Below, in pieces: positions 11,933 through 30,175 of a stretch of DNA of 49,994 nucleotides. The stretch covers positions 1-49,994 of the forward strand of contig WFTQ01000045.1 of the NCBI GenBank assembly GCA_015485355.1, given 5' to 3'. Positions within the stretch are counted from its first letter, which is position 1, and every line of letters starts with the position of its first letter. Under the pieces are notes generated by a model. It searched no databases. It was not told the DNA's origin and saw only the letters and a list, made by a program, of their open reading frames with translations. The stretch is from a bacterium. GTDB lineage: Bacteria; Calditrichota; Calditrichia; RBG-13-44-9; J042. A program made the position numbers and the translations under genes.

Positions 11933-12128
11933 AGGAACATTCGGTCATTGGACGACCCATCGAAACTGCGGGCCTGGTCCGCCTGACATGGACGAAAATC
12001 CCGACGATCCCGGTGTGACAGGGGGAGAAGGCTGTTTTTTACTTCAAATGCCGGGTTTCGTTTTGTAATTTTTACCCTTTGTGGGTGTATTCCGTTGGCA
12101 AACCAAACGGCAGGGAAGGACAAGATTG

Positions 12129-13547
12129 ATGCAGCGACGGCGATCCACATCGGTCGGCACACGGACGCCATTGGAGCCATTTGTGGCCGGCTATCCGCAG
12201 TTGCGGAAAGTGATGGGGCCTTTGCATGGCGTGGACTATCGGCAGCTGTCTATCGATTCCCGAACCATGCAGTCGGGTGAGTGTTTTGTGGCCCTCAAAG
12301 GGGAACGCTTCGATGCCCACGACTTTCTACCCCAGGTGGTGGAAAAGCGCCCTGCAGCGGTGATCGTGAACGAAAACGGCTTCCAGAGCCACTATGGCCT
12401 GCTGAAGGCCCACTCGGTGCCGACCGTCGTGGTTCAGGATACCCTGCATTTTCTTCAGGAACTGGCCCGCTGGCACCGCTCCCGTTTTGCCGTTCCTGTA
12501 ATAGGTATCACCGGTTCCAGTGGCAAGACCACCACTCGCGAAATGATCGCCGCCATTTTAGAATCACGATATCGAGTGGTGCGCAGCGCTAAAAATCAAA
12601 ACAATCAAATCGGGGTCCCCTTGTCCCTGCTGAAAATGGACGAAACCACCGAGGTGGCCGTTCTGGAACTGGGAACCAATCAGCCGGGGGAGATTCAGCG
12701 TCTGACCGAGCTGGTTCAACCCACTATCGGTGTCATTACCCAGATCGGCAAGGGGCACATTGGATTTTTTGGAAGCCAGGAGGCCATATATCGGGAGAAA
12801 ACGGCGCTGTTTCGGGGTATGGCTTCCGGAAGCACGATCGTTTTAAACATGGAAGATGCGTTTCTGAAGCGATACACCCGTCCCGATGTCCATATCCTCC
12901 GGGCGGGGCTCCATGGCGGCTTGGATGTGTGGGGTGAGTGGTTGGCGGTGGACGCCCTTGGATGCGTTCGCTGGCGGCTTAACGGCAGGGTGGCTATTCA
13001 GATGGGCATTCCCGGGCGCCATCAATTTCTGAATGCCATTCTGGCCAGTGCGGTGGGATTGCATTTGGGCCTGACCGAGGAGGCGATATGTCAGGCCTTA
13101 GAGGCCTTTCGGCCGGCACAGCAGCGCATGGAATATTTTCAGCGCGATGGGGTGCTGTTCATCAACGATGCCTATAACGCCAATCCCGAGTCCATGCGCG
13201 CCGCTTTACAGTACCTGTGCGAGGTGCCCCGCGGCGGAAAACGCATCGCCGTGCTGGGGGATATGCTGGAACTGGGTGAATTTGAGGTGTACGAGCACCG
13301 CACCCTGGGAGATGTCATTGCCGGTTTACCCATAGAGGTAATATTGCTTTATGGTCCCCGAATGCGGCATCTGGAACAGCGACTGAGGGAACTGTCGCCT
13401 TCGGAACGGGTGGTGCGCTGGTTTGCCGCTCATGACGAACTGGCTGCCTTTTTAAAAACGCGCTTGAGCGCCGGGGACGTGGTGTTGGTGAAAGGCTCCC
13501 GGGGCATGCAGATGGAATGGGTGCTGGAGAACTTAACGGCGGAGTAG
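12129..13547 (+). CDS. murF: UDP-N-acetylmuramoyl-tripeptide--D-Ala-D-Ala ligase MurF
   Basis: A 472-aa Mur ligase adding D-Ala-D-Ala to the UDP-MurNAc-tripeptide. N-terminal substrate domain LSIDSRTMQSGECFVALKGERFDAHDF (in halves: LSIDSRTMQSGECF and VALKGERFDAHDF), P-loop VIGITGSSGKTTTREM, KNQNNQIGVPLSLL, ELGTNQPGEI, then NDAYNANPESMRAAL and VLGDMLELGE in the C-terminal domain. ATG 12129 follows GGAAGGA; an in-frame ATG 16 codons earlier lacks a site. It is separated from murE by 196 bp, the largest gap inside the cluster up to murF, in which I found no convincing promoter. The stop is 5 bp before mraY. Confidence 0.95.
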   Translation: MQRRRSTSVGTRTPLEPFVAGYPQLRKVMGPLHGVDYRQLSIDSRTMQSGECFVALKGERFDAHDFLPQVVEKRPAAVIVNENGFQSHYGLLKAHSVPTVVVQDTLHFLQELARWHRSRFAVPVIGITGSSGKTTTREMIAAILESRYRVVRSAKNQNNQIGVPLSLLKMDETTEVAVLELGTNQPGEIQRLTELVQPTIGVITQIGKGHIGFFGSQEAIYREKTALFRGMASGSTIVLNMEDAFLKRYTRPDVHILRAGLHGGLDVWGEWLAVDALGCVRWRLNGRVAIQMGIPGRHQFLNAILASAVGLHLGLTEEAICQALEAFRPAQQRMEYFQRDGVLFINDAYNANPESMRAALQYLCEVPRGGKRIAVLGDMLELGEFEVYEHRTLGDVIAGLPIEVILLYGPRMRHLEQRLRELSPSERVVRWFAAHDELAAFLKTRLSAGDVVLVKGSRGMQMEWVLENLTAE

Positions 13548-13552
13548 CGGAT

Positions 13553-14665
13553 ATGTTAGCCGATTTTTTGTATCAGTTTAAGGATGTGTTCTTTGGCTTT
13601 AATGTGTTTCGATATATCACCGTGCGGGCGGCTTTGGCGGCCATCACAGCCTTAATTTTCAGCTTTTATGTGGGGCCCCGGATGATCCGCTGGCTGCAAA
13701 ACCATCAAATCGGTGAAGAAATTCGTACCGACGGACCGGCCACACATTTGGCCAAGGCCGGAACGCCGACCATGGGCGGATTGATTATTCTGTCTTCCAT
13801 TTTATTGTCCGTGTTAATGTGGACCAAAATTCTCTCCAATTTTTACATCTGGATGATCTTTCTGGCCACTTTCTGGATGGGACTGGTCGGTTTAATGGAT
13901 GATTATTTGAAGGTGGTCAAAAAGAAAAAGCGGGGTTTGATCGGCCGTTACAAACTGGCGGGGCAGATTACCCTGGGCCTGATTATTGGTAGCTTGATTT
14001 ACTTTCATCCTCAGTTCATCGCCCAGGGATTAAACGATAATACCAGCGTACCTTTTTTTAAGAATCTGGAAATAAATTTTGGTCTTTTTTACATCCCCAT
14101 CGTTATACTGGTCATCACGGCATCTTCCAATGCGGTGAATTTAACCGATGGTCTGGATGGACTGGCCGCCGGTTTGATTGCCATTTCCATGTTAGCATTT
14201 GCCGGGATGAGTTACGTGACCGGGAATGTCAAATTTGCTGACTATTTGAATATCATATACCTGCCGGGCAGTGGAGAGTTGACGGTATATTGCATGGCGG
14301 TGGTGGGGGCGGCGATGGGATTTCTCTGGTTCAATGCTTATCCGGCACAGGTGTTCATGGGAGATACCGGAGCATTGGCCTTGGGCAGTACGCTGGGTGC
14401 CGCCGCGGTATTGATCAAGAAAGAGATTTTGTTGATCCTGATCGGGGGGGTATTCGTGGCCGAAGCCCTTAGCGTTATCATTCAGACCAGTTATTTTAAA
14501 TACTCCCGAAAAAAATACGGTCAGGGGCGCCGGGTTTTCCGCATGGCTCCCCTGCATCATCATTACGAATTAAAGGGCTGGCACGAGGCCAAAGTGGTGG
14601 TCCGATTCTGGATCATCGGTATTTTGCTGGCCCTGTTAAGCCTGACTACTTTTAAAGTCCAATGA
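13553..14665 (+). CDS. mraY: Phospho-MurNAc-pentapeptide transferase MraY
   Basis: A 370-aa integral membrane enzyme with about ten transmembrane helices that transfers phospho-MurNAc-pentapeptide to undecaprenyl phosphate, forming lipid I. Family motifs: HLAKAGTPTMGGLII, GLMDDYLKV, NLTDGLDGLA, FMGDTGALALG and MAPLHHHYELKGW. The catalytic Asp residues of these motifs are all present. ATG 13553 has GGAG eight bases upstream, overlapping the end of murF. The next gene murD begins 12 bp after the stop. Confidence 0.96.
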   Translation: MLADFLYQFKDVFFGFNVFRYITVRAALAAITALIFSFYVGPRMIRWLQNHQIGEEIRTDGPATHLAKAGTPTMGGLIILSSILLSVLMWTKILSNFYIWMIFLATFWMGLVGLMDDYLKVVKKKKRGLIGRYKLAGQITLGLIIGSLIYFHPQFIAQGLNDNTSVPFFKNLEINFGLFYIPIVILVITASSNAVNLTDGLDGLAAGLIAISMLAFAGMSYVTGNVKFADYLNIIYLPGSGELTVYCMAVVGAAMGFLWFNAYPAQVFMGDTGALALGSTLGAAAVLIKKEILLILIGGVFVAEALSVIIQTSYFKYSRKKYGQGRRVFRMAPLHHHYELKGWHEAKVVVRFWIIGILLALLSLTTFKVQ

Positions 14666-14677
14666 AGGGATGGAAGC

Positions 14678-16123
14678 GTGGGAGCCCGTTTTGACATAAA
14701 GTCCACCGGAAGCGAGAATGTTCGTCAGCTGCAGGGATGCCCGGTGGCCGTTCTGGGAGCCGCCCGCAGTGGCCGGGAGGTGGCCCGCCTGCTACACCTG
14801 GCCGGTGCCCGGGTGTTGTTAAGTGAAGCGCGCCCCGCCCGTCAGGTGGCGGAACAGCTGCGGCACCTTCCCGAAGACATTGAAGTGGAAACCGGGGGAC
14901 ACAGCAGTAACATTCTGAAGGCCCACCTGGTGGTCATCAGCCCGGGAATTCCGCTGGAAATCCCCATCTTGCAAAAAGTGAGGCGGGCACACATTCCCGT
15001 TGTTGGAGAACTGGAAGTGGCTTCCTGGTTTACCCGGGCTCCGATTATCGCCATTACCGGCAGCAATGGCAAGACCACGACCACGGCCCTCACCGGAGAA
15101 ATGTTCCGGTATCAGTATGCCGATGTGATTGTGGGGGGCAATATCGGCCGCCCTTTTTCCGGCGAATTGCTTAAAATGCCCCGGCCCGTATTCAACATCC
15201 TGGAAGTGAGCAGCTTCCAGCTGGAAAGCATTCATGCCTTTCATCCGCGGGCCGCCGTCATTACCAATCTTTCCCCCAACCATCTGGACCGGTATGCCGG
15301 TTTCGACGCCTATGTTCGGGCGAAATTGAACCTGTTGAAAAACATGACCGGCGACGACATCCTGCTCTACAATGCCGATGATCCGATGTTGACTGCCCAT
15401 CTGCGGCGGGTGGTTCCCCAGCAATTTCCCTTCAGCCTGAAGGGAGCGCTGGACCAGGGGAGCTGGTGGCAGGCAGACGGAATCCGAATTCGATGGCAGG
15501 AACTGGATGTGGAGATTCCCATTCCCGGCATGCGATTACGCGGTCCGCACAATCGATACAATTTACTGGTAGCGGCGACGCTGGCCGCGTTGTTTGGGGT
15601 AGAGCTGCGGCACGTCCAGCAGGTGGCGGAAACCTTTCAAGGGCTTCCGCATCGCTTGGAACCGGTGGGAAAGGTAGGGGGCGTGCTTTTTGTGAACGAT
15701 TCCAAGGCTACCACGGTACAGGCGCTGGAATTTGCCCTGCAGAGCTTTCAGGAACCGCTGGTTCTGATCGCCGGGGGAAAAGACAAGGGGGGGGATTTCG
15801 GTGCGCTGGTCCCGCTGTTGCAGCAACGGGTCAAAGCGGCCGTACTCATCGGTCAGGCCGCCCGGCGCATTCAAGAGGCCTGGCAGGGGTATATCCCCCT
15901 GTACCGATGTACCACCCTGAAAGCGGCGGTTCAACAGGCCTTTCGGCTGGCCGACGCCGGCGATGTGGTGCTGCTGGCCCCTGCCTGTTCCAGCTTCGAT
16001 ATGTTTCGAGATTACGAGGACCGCGGCGAGCAGTTCCGCCGCATGGTCCAGCAATTGGAAGACGTTACGCACCAAGAAACGCCCGGGGATCCCCGGCCCA
16101 AAACGGAGGACCCGCATTCGTGA
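14678..16123 (+). CDS. murD: UDP-N-acetylmuramoylalanine--D-glutamate ligase MurD
   Basis: A 481-aa Mur ligase that adds D-glutamate to UDP-MurNAc-L-Ala. N-terminal Rossmann-like domain with VAVLGAARSGREVARLL; SPGIPLE; P-loop AITGSNGKTTTTAL; GGNIGRPF; LEVSSFQLE; NLSPNHLDRY; C-terminal NDSKATTVQALEFAL, AGGKDKGGDF and LAPACSSFDMFRDYEDRGEQF. It starts at GTG 14678, preceded by AAGGGATGGAAGC. The last about 20 residues are a polar tail beyond the family core. A 132-bp gap to ftsW shows no gene. Confidence 0.95.
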   Translation: MGARFDIKSTGSENVRQLQGCPVAVLGAARSGREVARLLHLAGARVLLSEARPARQVAEQLRHLPEDIEVETGGHSSNILKAHLVVISPGIPLEIPILQKVRRAHIPVVGELEVASWFTRAPIIAITGSNGKTTTTALTGEMFRYQYADVIVGGNIGRPFSGELLKMPRPVFNILEVSSFQLESIHAFHPRAAVITNLSPNHLDRYAGFDAYVRAKLNLLKNMTGDDILLYNADDPMLTAHLRRVVPQQFPFSLKGALDQGSWWQADGIRIRWQELDVEIPIPGMRLRGPHNRYNLLVAATLAALFGVELRHVQQVAETFQGLPHRLEPVGKVGGVLFVNDSKATTVQALEFALQSFQEPLVLIAGGKDKGGDFGALVPLLQQRVKAAVLIGQAARRIQEAWQGYIPLYRCTTLKAAVQQAFRLADAGDVVLLAPACSSFDMFRDYEDRGEQFRRMVQQLEDVTHQETPGDPRPKTEDPHS

Positions 16124-16255
16124 AACAGTGCGACTCCAGGAGGGAATGTTGCAGGGCGGTATCCACGGCCCGTTTCCGGCCGGAGGATCGAGACGGCCCG
16201 AATCGCCGGGGAAAAAGAACGATACCCAAATCCGTGGGGCAACGCAGGAGGTGGC

Positions 16256-17410
16256 ATGCAACGTTCTCTGGTTGACCGTTGGCTGTTTTTCGCATTTTTT
16301 ACATTGATTTTTATCGGGGTCATTATGGTCTACAGTGCCAGCGTGTATTATGCCGAATTGACCCGCCACAACCCATTGTATTATCTCTTGCGCCACCTGA
16401 TGGCCTTGTTGATAGGGGTGATTGTGGGGGTAGGACTCTACAGTTTTCCCTTCAGGTACTTAAACCATCTGGCCCCGCTGTTGTTATGGGTGGGGCTGTT
16501 CATTCTGGGCTATCTGGCATTCGTGGCGCATAGTCGCTGGGTGTATCTGGGACCGTTGCACTTCCAGGGAGTGGACGTGGCCCGATTGGGATTGATAGTA
16601 TACCTGGCCGCCTCTCTGGCCCGAAAGGAGAATCGGTTATCCGATTTTCAGGAGGGCCTGTTTCCTCATCTCGGTTACCTGGGCCTGTTTGCATTTCTTA
16701 CCCTTCTGCAACCCGATTTCAGTAGTGCCATATTGCTTTTAATGGTAGGATTTACCATGCTTTTTGTGGCCCCGGTCCGCGTAAAGCACCTGCTGGCGGT
16801 CATCGGGGGGACTCTACCCCTGGCCCTGGGGGTTGTTCTGATCTCCCCCTATAAATGGGAACGGGTGATGGCTTATTGGAAGATGGAAGAAGACCTGCAG
16901 GGCAAAGGGTATCAGATTTACCAATCGCTGGTGAGTCTGGGCAGTGGCGGTGTTTGGGGAGTCGGGTTCACCCAAAGTCGTCAAAAACTGTTTTATTTAC
17001 CGGAGGCCCATACTGATTTTATTTATGCCATTATCGGGGAAGAGTGGGGTTTGTTGGGTACCCTGTTGGTATTGGGGTTGTTTTTTATAATCATGATTCG
17101 GGGCCTACGCATGGCGACGAAGGTAACGGAGCGTTTTACTTTTTATTTAATTGTGGGGATTACGGCCAATTTTGTTTGGTATGCCCTGGTGAACATTATG
17201 GTTACCTTGCGATTGGTACCGCCCACCGGGGTACCGCTGCCTTTTATCAGTTACGGGGGCACGGCATTGATCGTCAACTGCGCTCTGGCGGGTTTACTAC
17301 TGGGCATCGAACGCCGATTAAGAGATGCTCCGGAAGGCCGCCTTCGGCCTACGGTTAAACGGGTGTATCCCGTGCAACGGCGCTATACAACCCGGCGGAT
17401 ATACCAATGA
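16256..17410 (+). CDS. ftsW: Peptidoglycan glycosyltransferase FtsW (SEDS family)
   Basis: A 384-aa polytopic SEDS protein that polymerises lipid II together with FtsI at the septum; about ten transmembrane helices. It keeps the putative catalytic Asp in PEAHTDFI (249-256, D254), GxGYQ-like GKGYQIYQSLVSLGSGG, and PPTGVPLPFISYGGT near the C-terminus. Odd: the nearly invariant FQPSE of FtsW/RodA reads FQGVD (103-107). The cytoplasmic tail is Arg-rich. CAGGAGGTGGC before ATG 16256 is a strong ribosome site. FtsW rather than RodA by its place in the dcw cluster. Stop overlaps murG by 4 bp. Confidence 0.94.
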   Translation: MQRSLVDRWLFFAFFTLIFIGVIMVYSASVYYAELTRHNPLYYLLRHLMALLIGVIVGVGLYSFPFRYLNHLAPLLLWVGLFILGYLAFVAHSRWVYLGPLHFQGVDVARLGLIVYLAASLARKENRLSDFQEGLFPHLGYLGLFAFLTLLQPDFSSAILLLMVGFTMLFVAPVRVKHLLAVIGGTLPLALGVVLISPYKWERVMAYWKMEEDLQGKGYQIYQSLVSLGSGGVWGVGFTQSRQKLFYLPEAHTDFIYAIIGEEWGLLGTLLVLGLFFIIMIRGLRMATKVTERFTFYLIVGITANFVWYALVNIMVTLRLVPPTGVPLPFISYGGTALIVNCALAGLLLGIERRLRDAPEGRLRPTVKRVYPVQRRYTTRRIYQ

Positions 17411-24491: not shown

Positions 24492-25802
24492 CTAAAAACT
24501 ATATTTAATTTCCAGAAAGGCGCGGGAATATTTTTGGTTCTGACCAAAAGGGCTGTCTTCAGGACCTCTAAAGAGGGTGACGCCTCCATACACATTTAAG
24601 CCATCCGCCAATTCGTGGTACAGGATGGGCAGAATGAATAAATCCCGGTGTTTCGCGTTCATGACGCCGATCAGTTGCAGCGAGGTGTAGGGAAGGATCT
24701 GATAAACCAAACGGGTGGAAAGGGAACTTTCCAGGGGTTCTGGAATTCGAGGAGCAGGATTGCCCAATTGACGCCACATGAGGCGTTCTCGATCCGGATC
24801 ATACTTCAGACGCCGCAACTGAGAGCATTGCAGCGTCAGGCTGAGATCGTCACTAAAACGGTAATCGAACCCCAGAATATATTGGATAAACGGGTTTTCC
24901 AGGAATACATTGCGGCCCTGTCGATCGCGGGTCCGAAAATAGGCCCCTTCTCCCTTAATGACCCAACGCCCCTGCGTAACCACAAAATCCCCGCCGATAA
25001 TCTGGATGGGATTATACTGTTCCTGCCACAGGATGGCCTCGGGCACGTGATACGCATTGAGCCGGGGTTGAATGCGGATGTCTGGAAACTTATGGAACCC
25101 CTGGAAATAACTGATCGAGTAATCGATGCCCAGCCATTGAGAAGAGAGTTTCATGGCCCATTCGGCGTTGGCCAGCCGATTTTCCGGTAAGGCGGCCGGA
25201 AGCTTTTCCACCGGGTAAGGGCCCATTGTTTTCGGTACCTCGATGGGGATTTTGTTCGGTTGAAACCGTGGGATGAGCACACCTTCCAACGACCACCCGC
25301 CCAAATATAGGGTGAATCTGGCAGCCATCACCGGTATGCGGTAATCTTCGATCTCGGCGGCGATGTTCTGGTAATCCCAGGGGTTGATGTTATCCGTGGG
25401 ATTGATCCAATCGGCCTTTCCCCAGAAGATGAACTGTTTGCCCAGGCGCAGGTCGAAGAAAGGAAAATACAGATCAATATAACTTTCCACCGGGTAAATT
25501 TCCATTCCCCGGGCCCGAGATTCCTGAGCCAGTCCGGTCACGGCGGTTTCTTCAAAGTTGAAATTGACCGCGGTAAACAGAGCCGCCCGCCGGCCCAGGG
25601 TTTGGGTCAACACCAATTGCAGCCGACTCCCCAGACGATCGTAGGGATAAGGCGCATTGGTATTGACGTGATAAAACAATTTGAAATAGCCCCCCAGCGA
25701 GGGTTGCGCCCTGCCCGGCTGCCAGAACAGCGGGACCAGCATCAGGACGACGCCGATGCGCCTCAGGAGGGAAGTCGGTGTCGCATGCCCCAGGGTTTTC
25801 AT
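24492..25802 (-). CDS. Outer-membrane beta-barrel protein, DUF1302-like
   Basis: A 436-aa protein with a signal peptide (hydrophobic core LLRRIGVVLMLVPLFW, cleavage probably after GRA near 32). Alternating aromatic beta-strands run throughout and the last residues are EIKYSF, a C-terminal Phe as in BAM-assembled barrels. LRLGKQFIFWGKADWINPTD (in halves: LRLGKQFIFWG and KADWINPTD) recalls DUF1302/alginate-export-like barrels. ATG 25802 is preceded by GGGAAAGCGG and lies 23 bp after the LolA-like gene's stop; an open frame further upstream overlaps that gene and is ignored. Last gene of the TetR-MMPL-LolA-like operon, so probably the outer-membrane acceptor or exit channel. Family is tentative. 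Confidence 0.82.
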   Translation of the reverse strand: MKTLGHATPTSLLRRIGVVLMLVPLFWQPGRAQPSLGGYFKLFYHVNTNAPYPYDRLGSRLQLVLTQTLGRRAALFTAVNFNFEETAVTGLAQESRARGMEIYPVESYIDLYFPFFDLRLGKQFIFWGKADWINPTDNINPWDYQNIAAEIEDYRIPVMAARFTLYLGGWSLEGVLIPRFQPNKIPIEVPKTMGPYPVEKLPAALPENRLANAEWAMKLSSQWLGIDYSISYFQGFHKFPDIRIQPRLNAYHVPEAILWQEQYNPIQIIGGDFVVTQGRWVIKGEGAYFRTRDRQGRNVFLENPFIQYILGFDYRFSDDLSLTLQCSQLRRLKYDPDRERLMWRQLGNPAPRIPEPLESSLSTRLVYQILPYTSLQLIGVMNAKHRDLFILPILYHELADGLNVYGGVTLFRGPEDSPFGQNQKYSRAFLEIKYSF

Positions 25803-25825
25803 TCCGCTTTCCCGAGTTGTCTCAC

Positions 25826-26620
25826 TTAACGAATGCGTTGCAAGAAACGCACCGAAAAAAAGTTGGCCGGAATGTTCTGATTGACCCGGATGTTTTCGAA
25901 AATCAGCTCGCTCCGGTGCCCGGTTTGCAGATCGGTCATGAGCAAATCGGTTTGGAACCATACGCCGGAAATATTTTCCACCCGGCGTACGGTTAAGCGT
26001 TTCCATTCCCGGTCCCCGCGATCGAAATACAGGGATTGAACGGTAACCAGGAGATCCTTGCGAATCCAACGAATGATCTTGTTGTATCCGGTATCTTTCG
26101 AGATCTGAGGAGTGGCCGGCAAGGATTCGATTGTGTAGCATTCCCGTCCGTCAAGAGTTTGGTCTTCCAGGCGCCGATAGGTCCAGTCGTTTAATTTAGG
26201 TCGTCCGATGTCATAATAAGTGAAATCCGAGGACATGAAGTTGCCTCCCTTTCCGCTGGAGGCAATCCGTTTTATCCGGCGCAATGCCGGAAGATAGAGG
26301 TATCGCTCATCGTCTCTGTCCAGGTGCTCGATGATCAAAAAAGCGGTATTGCGCACGTCCGGTGGGGATAGGAAACGCATCAGCATATCGCTTTCGTCTT
26401 CGGTGCGTTTGCGGCTGTACATCTTGATTTTTCGAACGCGTTTTTCTCCCCGGGCGTTCTGCAGGACGAGGGTGACATCGGCCTGGAGATCTTTCCAGGT
26501 CGTTTTGTGCAGGACGGCCTCCATGATCTCCCGGCCGCTCTTGCCTTGGGCTGCCGGCTGCGGCATCCCCGTAAGCCATAGGCCGACAAGGACGGTCAGC
26601 CAGAGGGATCGGATCTTCAT
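25826..26620 (-). CDS. LolA-like outer-membrane lipoprotein-sorting protein
   Basis: A 264-aa periplasmic protein with a signal peptide (about 1-26, ending PAAQG). The rest matches the LolA-like family found beside MMPL exporters: ADVTLVLQNARGEKRVRKI, RFLSPPDVRNTAFLIIEH, RYLYLPALRRIKRIASSGKGGNFMSSDFTYYDI (in halves: RYLYLPALRRIKRI and NFMSSDFTYYDI) and CYTIESLP. The fold is a half-barrel that can carry acyl chains. GAGGAG precedes ATG 26620, and the start abuts the MMPL stop (1 bp). In context it probably shuttles a lipidic cargo between the inner-membrane exporter and the outer-membrane barrel; the cargo is unknown. Confidence 0.88.
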   Translation of the reverse strand: MKIRSLWLTVLVGLWLTGMPQPAAQGKSGREIMEAVLHKTTWKDLQADVTLVLQNARGEKRVRKIKMYSRKRTEDESDMLMRFLSPPDVRNTAFLIIEHLDRDDERYLYLPALRRIKRIASSGKGGNFMSSDFTYYDIGRPKLNDWTYRRLEDQTLDGRECYTIESLPATPQISKDTGYNKIIRWIRKDLLVTVQSLYFDRGDREWKRLTVRRVENISGVWFQTDLLMTDLQTGHRSELIFENIRVNQNIPANFFSVRFLQRIR

Positions 26621-26621
26621 A

Positions 26622-28970
26622 TTACGGGCTCCTCTTTTTTAATGCCGCTGGTTTGAAGGTCAGAAAAATGACCGGTAGAATGGTAATAGCTCCGAAACAG
26701 GTGGTCAACATGGCCAGGGTGATGAGCATTCCCATATTTTGCACCCCGCCAAAGATGGAGAACATCATCACGGCAAATCCCAGGCCCACCGTGAGGGCAT
26801 TCAATACTATGGGAACCCCGGCTTCTACCATGGTGACCCGTAGGCTTTCGGCTTCCGGCATCATAGCCAATTCCATTCGATAGCGATGAATGAAATGTAC
26901 CGCATAATCGACCCCCACGCCGATCGCAATGGAGGAGGTCAACATGGTGACAATGTTCAAGTGGGTGCCCGTCCAGCCCATGAAACCGAAATTGAAAACC
27001 ATGGCGAAAAGCAGGGGGATGGCATTGAACATGCCAAGGGTCAGGGAACGAAAAGAGAGGGTCGTCACCAGGGTCACCAGAATCAGTGAGGTCAAAATGC
27101 TCCAGAATTGCCCCCGCACTACCAGATCGTTGATGGCCAGAAACAACTGGGAAGTTCCCGTCAGTTCAACCCGGGCGCTGTGAAAATTGTTTTGAATGAA
27201 ATGGCGGGTCCGTTGCTCTATTTCCCGTAACACATTGCCGGATTCGGTATCGATAAAGGCATTGATCCGGGCGGTCTGATATTGATAGTCGACCAGGTTG
27301 GCGAAATCATCCGGTTTGCCGGACATTTCATACAGTTGGAGATACTGGGCCACCAGCTGTCGTCCGGGCACCTTAAAGCGAATTGGCACTTCGACCCCGC
27401 GGCCGTTGTTTTCTATCCACTCATAACCCACGGCCTCTATCGTGTCCGGCGGGATGCGATGATAGGCTTCCGAGTCGGCATGCATGACTTTATTCATCCG
27501 CTTGATATAATCTGCCAGCGAAAGTGTGGCGCCCACGTGGGGCAGGGTCTTTAAAAACGCTTCCAGCTTTTCCATATCCCGCAAAACGCGGGGTTCTTTG
27601 ATTTGCCCGGCACTGTCCCCTTCCACCATCACGGTTAAGAACGTGGTGCCGGCAAAGTTTTGGTTGACTTTTTCGAAGGCCAACCGGGCAGGATGGTCTT
27701 CCGGGAAATTGTTGATGGTGTTGTTTTCCAGATGAATGTGACTAAACCCCGCGACGGCGAAGACGACCACCAGCACCACCAATCCGCCCACCAGAGGGCG
27801 ATGCCGGATGAGAAGGTCGGCATATCCCGTGGCTATACGGCTCAACCGACTGCGACGTTTGTGCTCCCGGATTGGGTCTGGAATGTGTAAAAGGGATAAA
27901 GTGGCCGGTAAGAAGGTGAGCGAAAAGAGCATGGCGATCATAACCCCCGCAGCGGTAAAAATCCCCAGCTGCCCTACCGATCCCACGTGAGACGTGTTCA
28001 GGGCTAGAAAACCGAACGAAGTGGTGATCGAGGTGATGATGACCGGTGTGTTCAGCTCCTGCATCACCGCCAGAACGGTTTCCGGCGCACTTTTACCGTG
28101 CTGGGCATGTTCGAAATATCGGTTCATGATATGGATGCCATCGGCTACGGCGATGGAGGCCAACAAAATGGGCAGCATATTGGTCGAATGACTGATGGGA
28201 ACCCCGAATAGAGCCATCAGCCCGATGGCGCAGATCACGCTGCTGATAACAATGAATAGCGGCAACACCACCCCACGAAAAGAACGAAAGCTGATCCACA
28301 ATACGGCGATGATGATGAAAATTACCAGGGGGAACAGAATGCCCATGTCTCGAGCCATTCCTCGTCCCAGATAATAGGTCAACACGGGTTTGCCGGTGAT
28401 GTAAACCGTGAAGGGTACTTGCTGATCTTCAAAGAATTGTATGATCTGATGGGCGGCATCTTCCGCCTTGATGGTGTTCTTCAGAAACACCATGATTCCC
28501 GCCATGCGCTCGTCCCGCGATATCAAATTTTCAATGGGCAGATCGCTGTGGAAGAGGGTTTGACGGTATTGGGACACCTGTTCGGGGGTGGCGGGGGGCT
28601 CTTCCAAAATCTCTCGCACTTCCATGCCGTTGTGGGTGCCGCGGATGATCTTTACGTTGGTGGGACTCATGACGGAATAGACATCGGGCATGTCTTCCAG
28701 CTTCCGGGTGATCCGATATAAATGGTGCAGCACGGGGACGCTGAATAGGGAATCGGTCTCCACGGCGATGAGAATAAAATCTCGGCTGGGAAAGATCGTG
28801 TTCATCCGATCATACAGGCGTTTTGCGGGGATGTCCTGGGGCAGGGCGGAAGTGATGTCCGGATCCACCGTAATGCTCCGAATCTGATACCCCAGCACGC
28901 CGGTCAGGATGAGCACCAGGGCAATGGTCGGCCACGGGTGGCGCACCACCCATCGGGTTATATGAAACAT
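26622..28970 (-). CDS. RND superfamily MMPL-type exporter
   Basis: A 782-aa polytopic inner-membrane protein. One transmembrane helix near the N-terminus, a large periplasmic loop (about 35-215), a bundle of five to six helices (about 215-375), a second periplasmic loop (about 410-610) and a second bundle (about 615-775). Repeat-specific motifs: LASIAVADGIHIMNRYFEH and SSIAIGVGVDYAVHFIHRYR, where the Asp residues are proton-relay candidates. This is the predicted exporter family of MmpL/HpnN type (COG1033), which moves lipids or other hydrophobic cargo. ATG 28970 overlaps the TetR stop by one base with GGAGG ten bases upstream, so translation is coupled. Confidence 0.92.
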   Translation of the reverse strand: MFHITRWVVRHPWPTIALVLILTGVLGYQIRSITVDPDITSALPQDIPAKRLYDRMNTIFPSRDFILIAVETDSLFSVPVLHHLYRITRKLEDMPDVYSVMSPTNVKIIRGTHNGMEVREILEEPPATPEQVSQYRQTLFHSDLPIENLISRDERMAGIMVFLKNTIKAEDAAHQIIQFFEDQQVPFTVYITGKPVLTYYLGRGMARDMGILFPLVIFIIIAVLWISFRSFRGVVLPLFIVISSVICAIGLMALFGVPISHSTNMLPILLASIAVADGIHIMNRYFEHAQHGKSAPETVLAVMQELNTPVIITSITTSFGFLALNTSHVGSVGQLGIFTAAGVMIAMLFSLTFLPATLSLLHIPDPIREHKRRSRLSRIATGYADLLIRHRPLVGGLVVLVVVFAVAGFSHIHLENNTINNFPEDHPARLAFEKVNQNFAGTTFLTVMVEGDSAGQIKEPRVLRDMEKLEAFLKTLPHVGATLSLADYIKRMNKVMHADSEAYHRIPPDTIEAVGYEWIENNGRGVEVPIRFKVPGRQLVAQYLQLYEMSGKPDDFANLVDYQYQTARINAFIDTESGNVLREIEQRTRHFIQNNFHSARVELTGTSQLFLAINDLVVRGQFWSILTSLILVTLVTTLSFRSLTLGMFNAIPLLFAMVFNFGFMGWTGTHLNIVTMLTSSIAIGVGVDYAVHFIHRYRMELAMMPEAESLRVTMVEAGVPIVLNALTVGLGFAVMMFSIFGGVQNMGMLITLAMLTTCFGAITILPVIFLTFKPAALKKRSP

Positions 28971-29593
28971 CAGCGATTGTCCTCCTTTTGCATGAGAGCA
29001 CCGTTCAGGAAAATCTGATTGATCAATTGAGCTTTCTCTCGAAGCCCCCGGGCATCGGCGTCCCGATCAAGAAATTGTCCCAAACCCATTACCAGAGCGC
29101 CGAAAATTTCCACCAATTGGTCCGTGGGGTACGGTTTCAGAACACCCCGCTGCTGGGCCTGCAAGAACAGCTCCTGCACCCGGCGGGTCTTTTCCTGAAT
29201 CAGGGGCTGCAATTGCCGCATGGCCTTCCGGTTCAAGGCGGGATGGGCCGTCAGGTAATAATAAAGTTTAAAATAGTTCGGATAGGCGGCAAAAAAGTGC
29301 GCCCCCACCAGGGCGATTTGTTGAATTTGCTCCAGTAAGCTTTCGCTGGTTTCCCATTCCCGTTCGATCCGGTCGAAAAACTCCCGGATGCCGTCTTCCA
29401 GAATGGATAACAACAGCTCATCTTTGCTCTTGAAATAGTAGTATAGGGTGGCCTTCCCCAGCTCGGCGTTTTCGGCAATCCGTTCCATGCTGGTGCCATG
29501 GTAACCGTTCTCGGCGAAGGTTTTCAGGGCGGCGTTGCGGATCAGCTGGATGCGGGCACGGCGTTCTCGCTCTTTGCGCTCGGCAATGGGCAT
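28970..29593 (-). CDS. TetR family transcriptional regulator
   Basis: A 207-aa repressor-like protein. The N-terminal helix-turn-helix (about 17-63) has the classic pattern IRNAALKTFAENGYHGTSMERIAENAELGKATLYYYFKSKDEL (key pieces: FAENGYHGTSMERIA, GKATLYYYFKSKDELL). The C-terminal ligand and dimer domain is variable and resembles the FadR/AcrR-type group. First gene of a leftward operon with the MMPL exporter, LolA-like protein and barrel, so it probably represses this operon and responds to the exported or a related hydrophobic compound. It uses ATG 29593, with only a weak AGGT site upstream. Confidence 0.92.
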   Translation of the reverse strand: MPIAERKERERRARIQLIRNAALKTFAENGYHGTSMERIAENAELGKATLYYYFKSKDELLLSILEDGIREFFDRIEREWETSESLLEQIQQIALVGAHFFAAYPNYFKLYYYLTAHPALNRKAMRQLQPLIQEKTRRVQELFLQAQQRGVLKPYPTDQLVEIFGALVMGLGQFLDRDADARGLREKAQLINQIFLNGALMQKEDNR

Positions 29594-29614
29594 AAGTTCG
29601 ACTACCTATTCAAA

Positions 29615-29661
29615 ATTCGACCATACATTCGAAAGTTAAGCCGTTTTACCCGGCGTTTCAA
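29615..29661 (-). promoter_or_regulatory. Promoter and possible TetR operator of the export operon
   Basis: On the minus strand TTGAAA (complement of 29656-29661), a 17-nt spacer and TAACTT (complement of 29633-29638). Directly downstream of the -10 lie two copies of ATTCGA twelve bases apart (29615-29620 and 29627-29632), the second extended to the palindrome TTCGAA; a third GTTCGA is at 29596-29601. Repeats just past a promoter of a TetR gene are natural operator candidates. Confidence 0.4.
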
Positions 29662-29833: not shown

Positions 29834-30175
29834 ATGTCTCGGTCGTCAGAATTGAAATTCACTATTCATCTGGATGAGAAAAAATTTCCCGTAAAGATTG
29901 AGTGGGAGGCCACCGACGCCGATTTCACCGGTCGCCGGCAATGCGACGCTTTGATGATTTCCCTGTGGGATAATGAGGAAAAAAATACCATGGGAATGGA
30001 TTTATGGACTCCGGAAATGCTGATTGTTGATATGAACGTGCATGTGTTCCAGACCCTGATGAAAATCGCGGATACGTATTTAAAGGCGACCAACAATTTA
30101 CAGGTGGCCAATATGATCACCGATTTTGCCCAGCGGTTCGGGCGGGAAACTCAGGTTTTACAGGATGAGGCCTGA
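29834..30175 (+). CDS. gldC: GldC-like gliding-motility protein
   Basis: A 113-aa soluble protein without signal peptide or transmembrane helix. The pattern LKFTIHLDEKKFPVKIEWEATD, SLWDNEEKNTMGMDLWTPEM, FQTLMKIADTYLKATNN and ITDFAQRFGRE matches GldC of Bacteroidota over its whole length (about 110 aa). In gliding species GldC is an accessory cytoplasmic protein; outside them its role is not known. GGAGG precedes ATG 29834; the frame is open upstream but without a start context. It stands alone, divergent from the TetR operon. Its presence, with the T9SS tail on the peptidase at 36010, supports an FCB-group host. Confidence 0.87.
   Translation: MSRSSELKFTIHLDEKKFPVKIEWEATDADFTGRRQCDALMISLWDNEEKNTMGMDLWTPEMLIVDMNVHVFQTLMKIADTYLKATNNLQVANMITDFAQRFGRETQVLQDEA

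Follow-up and report, generated by a model that had tools for sequence, protein, structure and literature searches.

In mycobacteria MmpL pairs with LppX, and the LolA-fold lipoproteins LppX/LprG exemplify the concept of an MMPL protein with a LolA-like lipid carrier, in an envelope of another kind. Sets of an HAE3-type RND protein, a LolA-fold carrier and a DUF1302 protein are also a known kind. AmeABCD of Castellaniella defragrans consists of an HAE3 RND protein with DUF1302, DUF1329 and YCF48 proteins, and the ameABCD mutant has a lower monoterpene tolerance, while HpnN, which has the HAE3 RND architecture, is without a carrier or barrel gene partner (PMC6394551). The DUF1302/DUF1329 genes of P. 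putida are required for growth on Tween 20, and published AlphaFold predictions pair the DUF1329 protein with DUF1302 and with the RND partner (PMC10866462); the MMPL-LolA of Thalassolituus is induced 42-fold on C28 alkane (PMC6304351). In Acinetobacter, the acinetin-505 lipopeptide operon A1S_0112-0119 (PMC5376624) has an RND gene whose mutant is motility-deficient (PMC7997844), and in P. gingivalis a TetR-MMPL-LolA-hypothetical operon is among the strongest responses to hemin/iron limitation (PMC10470040; PMC10434189). P. gingivalis LolA3 has a 13-stranded sheet described as forming a hydrophobic groove and binds LolB only weakly (PMC13103446), and De Smet et al. found the cavity of F. johnsoniae LolA3 to be more polar, the deletion of lolA3 there being without phenotype (PMC11885536). 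A sequence-only reading of the present locus had called the whole set uncharacterised, which goes too far given the mutant, expression or structural data just cited for Castellaniella, P. putida, Thalassolituus, Acinetobacter and P. gingivalis, and stands in so far as none of these relatives has both a proven cargo and the exact gene set described below.

The window, that is the whole stretch of 49,994 nucleotides that was analysed, comes from a Calditrichota bacterium, and the reading of its ORFs gave four complete genes at 24492-29593 on the minus strand. In order, they encode a TetR-family repressor (28970-29593, 207 aa; TetR_N PF00440, 8.3e-18), an HAE3-like MMPL/RND inner-membrane transporter (26622-28970, 782 aa; MMPL PF03176, 9.5e-45), a LolA-like periplasmic carrier with an N-terminal signal peptide (25826-26620, 264 aa; LolA_like PF17131, 1.2e-55) and a DUF1302 outer-membrane beta-barrel with a signal peptide (24492-25802, 436 aa; PF06980, 1.2e-9), all four Pfam matches being above the curated cut-offs. 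The TetR stop and the MMPL start have one base in common (TGATG), a 1-bp gap separates the MMPL and LolA-like genes and a 23-bp gap the LolA-like and barrel genes, and no extra ORF lies between them, so that the tightly spaced four-gene cassette of the sequence-only reading (gaps of at most 23 bp, TGATG overlap) was borne out. The longest ORF at the barrel locus begins upstream, at 26141; we placed the predicted start at the ATG at 25802, which gives a signal-peptide-like N-terminus and fits that spacing. Another ORF (29834-30175), putatively GldC-like, is divergent from tetR and has the intergenic region in common with it; it was also present in a relative of the same genus (G001) and was not seen elsewhere.

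The cassette resembles AmeABCD in that an HAE3-type RND protein, a LolA-superfamily carrier and a DUF1302 outer-membrane protein are encoded together, but it is led by tetR, has a PF17131 carrier instead of the 451-aa DUF1329 carrier and lacks YCF48/AmeC, no YCF48-like AmeC gene being recognised beside it. The YCF48-MMPL-DUF1302-DUF1329 set that we found on an Aromatoleum plasmid lies among beta-oxidation genes. The Acinetobacter locus, an MMPL-LolA fusion with a DUF1302-like barrel that matches the acinetin-505 operon (A1S_0116-A1S_0117), likewise has an MMPL protein, a LolA-like protein and a DUF1302-like barrel in one operon, but there the MMPL and LolA parts are fused, an extra N-terminal domain is present, tetR is missing and the operon is NRPS-linked. 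In Porphyromonas-like genomes, LolA3 orthologues were located within TetR-(ABC-ABC)-MMPL-LolA-DUF1302 operons, a layout also seen in the operon that responds to hemin/iron limitation in P. gingivalis and P. intermedia (PMC10470040; PMC10434189); from annotation and synteny we infer that PGN0947 (LolA3) is PG1179, whose likely operon, PG1178-PG1181, differs from the window cassette in its ABC exporter pair and its operator. In the Lol pathway the engine is a LolCDE-type ABC transporter and the receptor is LolB, whereas the cassette has an RND/MMPL protein and, as outer-membrane partner, a barrel. Unlike HAE1 tripartite efflux systems, it has neither a membrane-fusion protein nor a TolC-type channel according to Pfam on the cassette genes, and its barrel is AlgE/porin-like.

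The nearest NCBIfam family of the transporter was HAE3 (TIGR00921, E 2.2e-90, 303.8 bits against a model cut-off of 351.9), whereas the HpnN model (TIGR03480) stayed at 179.9 against its cut-off of 751.85; the nearest PDB sequences were HpnN and the MmpL4/5 structures. Invariant acidic residues were found at D277 (TM4) and D688-Y689 (TM10), of which D688-Y689 is canonical and D277 is displaced by one position from the canonical MmpL Asp. In the transporter tree, the window clade (13 rows, 100/100) and a second, broad clade (16 rows, 100/100) were mutually separate, and the window clade was also set apart from the AmeD-like row of Aromatoleum, a separation to be read with caution given the long branches, and from a longer paralogue type of its own genome. 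This paralogue lies on contig C57 (~11970-17020; L001 / L081), where a second MMPL gene (980 aa) is accompanied by a LolA_like gene and a barrel gene, the barrel having no Pfam match at E 0.001; relatives of this MMPL type also have tetR (L084, L086, L099). A hopanoid cargo was judged unlikely, as no SQHop_cyclase was found in the window genome and seven cassette-bearing relatives (8 genomes).

The carrier scored 188 bits for PF17131 and 29.1 bits for DUF1329 (cut-off 23.1), and its PDB sequence relatives were LolA3 (9TP6), 3BK5 and 4Z48. Its AF2 model (61-sequence alignment, pLDDT 89.4) had P. gingivalis LolA3 (9TP6) as the top Foldseek match (TM 0.84 query / 0.93 target, rmsd 1.5), with LprG also in the list, and reached a TM-score (query) of only ~0.4 to true LolA, so the modelled fold is of the LolA3 type and not that of classical LolA; sequence identity between P. 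gingivalis LolA3 and a close window relative was about 35%. A strand-face hydrophobicity test on the carrier was not significant (the null reached the value in 3856/5000), and the predicted groove therefore rests on homology. Support for the hydrophobic cargo proposed by the sequence-only reading is indirect and comes through relatives. A third LolA_like gene of the same genome (contig C3, ~14256-14804, L003) lies beside what we recognised by eye as an FtsX/LolE-type permease gene and a divergent TetR-like gene, as if an ABC-type engine served the same carrier fold.

The barrel scored 38.2 bits for DUF1302 (cut-off 23.2). Its AF2 model (pLDDT 89.5) has about 18-20 strands and resembled AlgE and general porins in Foldseek (TM about 0.5); FadL was absent among the Foldseek matches listed, and a PDB sequence search found no relative. 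Seven Omp85 matches above cut-off in the window genome indicate that an outer membrane is present. No LptD match was obtained there with PF04453, which, given the Omp85 proteins, we read as a divergent LptD rather than its absence; an outer membrane without LPS is the other way to account for it.

Among 60 relatives, 48 genomes had a LolA_like match, and MMPL (E <=1e-30) and the barrel were found in 32 each. In the fetched loci of the window clade the order tetR-mmpL-lolA-barrel held on every contig of sufficient length except, probably, in G012, where the gene before mmpL is not tetR. A scan of named genomes extended this order: the best 80 MMPL matches represented 80 loci from more than ten phyla, namely Calditrichota, Ignavibacteriota, Fidelibacterota (Marinimicrobia), Bacteroidota, Spirochaetota, Cloacimonadota, WOR-3, Delongbacteria, Latescibacterota, Nitrospirota and Binatota. 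With contig ends allowed for, so that the scorable number varies by position, tetR preceded mmpL in 66/70, the carrier gene followed in 57/62 and the barrel was present in 38/42; as the loci were the best matches found via the MMPL gene, these figures describe this MMPL subfamily and not all MMPLs. Chance would not give anything near such constancy of order, and the co-occurrence in relatives on which the sequence-only reading had staked its case holds. Its assignment of regulator, inner-membrane pump, periplasmic carrier and outer-membrane barrel likewise agrees with the families, the AlphaFold and Foldseek results for carrier and barrel, the synteny and the operator.

Several of the accessory genes inserted between core genes in the broad clade are lipid-linked. 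They include a gene for a 310-aa OMPLA-like barrel, present in 12/42 loci with a weak PF02253 match below the Pfam cut-off, and cupin, PAP2 phosphatase and phospholipid methyltransferase genes; none of these occurred in the window clade. The 310-aa barrel retains an H-x-S-N-G motif that resembles the OMPLA active site, but its identity as OMPLA was rejected because the Pfam support is weak and a PDB search gave no relative. We also observed a secreted YtfJ-like protein between mmpL and lolA in several loci (L123, L098, L092; Pfam on L092) and two ArsP-type permease halves at the same place in two others (L122, L139; Pfam on L122).

A conserved palindromic operator of tetR is predicted, which the sequence-only reading had missed. 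The putative operator O1 (29616-29633, minus strand, TTCGAATGTATGGTCGAA) is conserved across the window clade, in which the 18-bp palindrome TTCGAMYGNNNRGTCGAA lies upstream of tetR, and overlaps the end of the predicted -10. A weaker candidate, O2 (29597-29614, TTTGAATAGGTAGTCGAA, 2 mismatches, 19 bp from O1), and a promoter-like TTGAAA-17-TAACTT before tetR (29633-29661, minus strand) were read from the sequence, the latter by eye and not listed by a stricter consensus promoter scan. The relative G001 has the same tandem arrangement, also with 19-bp spacing. A whole-genome search of the 3.4-Mb genome found O1 as the sole site with <=1 mismatch, so a wider TetR regulon was rejected, and in the genomes of window-type relatives exact operator matches occurred at the cassette only. 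The broad clade has a different operator, TTAGTGAATATTAACTAA. With <=2 mismatches, the operator TTAGTKANTANTMACTAA of this clade was present in 34/62 tetR upstream regions, against 1/620 shuffles and 4/309 other upstream regions; with <=1 mismatch, all 58 sites in 1.08 Mb (58/58) were in or adjoining the cassette, being upstream of tetR, mmpL or another cassette gene or directly beside the cassette. Three Bacteroidales had 1-3 such sites each genome-wide (<=1 mismatch), mostly at the cassette, and the operator was not found in LolA3-type (Porphyromonas-like) loci. The predicted palindrome at its own promoter is what would mark this TetR as a local repressor, and the conservation of the operator with its single genomic location argues that the operon is very probably self-repressed.

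Taken together, we consider that the four genes probably form an autoregulated, proton-driven route dedicated to carrying an amphiphile outward between the two membranes. Driven by the proton-motive force, the MMPL/RND protein would pick up a lipid-like amphiphile at the periplasmic face of the inner membrane and hand it to the LolA3-type carrier, which would cross the periplasm and dock on the DUF1302 barrel, and the barrel would insert the molecule into the outer membrane or let it pass across. Bound to the tandem palindrome over its own promoter, TetR would silence the whole operon until it is freed by a ligand, which is probably the cargo or one of its precursors. In favour of this reading are the conserved order, the operator sites, the LolA3 carrier fold with its described hydrophobic groove, the Acinetobacter relative inside the acinetin-505 operon, the ameABCD phenotype, the RND relatives HpnN and MmpL4/5, which export lipids or siderophores, and the lipid-linked accessory genes of some loci; the predicted P. 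putida pairings favour the hand-over. Against it count the lack of a linked cargo gene and of conserved flanks at window-type cassettes in the fetched loci, the strand-face result together with the more polar F. johnsoniae cavity, the displaced TM4 acid, the OMPLA assignment below cut-off, and the P. putida and Thalassolituus relatives, which could mean uptake.

In inducible efflux, an RND pump typically comes with a TetR regulator, and the cassette might instead serve tolerance: TetR would detect foreign amphiphiles that are toxic to the cell, such as solvents and bile-like or terpenoid compounds, and the pump would expel them. Such a role has been proposed for AmeABCD, whose deletion reduces monoterpene tolerance. 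The cassette is indeed self-contained, patchy in relatives (32/60 genomes by MMPL) and without linked biosynthesis; but the MFP/TolC partners are absent, a membrane lipid fits the LolA carrier and the lipid-linked accessory genes better, and the Acinetobacter relative lies within a biosynthetic operon, which makes this explanation unlikely. It is more improbable still that the parts work as an uptake route, on which hydrophobic nutrients would enter at the barrel and travel with the carrier as far as the inner membrane. The Tween 20 and alkane findings and the beta-oxidation neighbourhood in Aromatoleum point that way, but the characterised RND/MMPL proteins (HpnN, MmpL) export, membership of the acinetin-505 cluster suggests an outward direction, and no catabolic genes were seen adjoining the window cassette.

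We give very little credence to a branch of lipoprotein sorting in which the LolA-like protein would carry lipoproteins with MMPL in place of LolCDE. The LolA fold, the family name "outer membrane lipoprotein-sorting protein" and the other LolA_like gene adjoining an FtsX-type permease gene favour it, but the TM-score of ~0.4 to true LolA against 0.84 to LolA3, the weak LolB binding and the lack of a lolA3 deletion phenotype do not, and it would be odd for housekeeping lipoproteins to have an inducible repressor of their own and so wide a barrel. Hardly any weight falls on the analogy by which the cassette, at least in the Bacteroidota branch, might export a lipophilic metallophore or porphyrin in the manner of MmpL4/5, since, against the hemin/iron response of the P. 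gingivalis operon, the operon setting of the LolA3 orthologues and the MmpL4/5 PDB relatives, no iron or heme gene was seen beside the window cassette and the different operators of the LolA3 branch mean that regulation is not common to both.

Beyond the dedicated export route, we tentatively suggest, as a possibility held with some doubt, that diderms widely use TetR-MMPL-LolA3-DUF1302 as a lipid exporter separate from the Lol, Lpt and Mla pathways and from tripartite efflux, which would move a specific outer-membrane amphiphile under dedicated self-repression and would explain the orphan LolA3 carriers of Bacteroidota. What is new here is the predicted sites of self-repression, the occurrence in so many phyla and the likely partners for LolA3. 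For lipids that are neither lipoproteins nor LPS, the way to the outer membrane is an open field, in which a compact, self-regulated set of RND protein, carrier and barrel, present across numerous phyla, offers itself directly as a candidate. The cassette connects LolA3, a structure without an assigned function, with likely partners, and its predicted operator may be used for finding the inducer.
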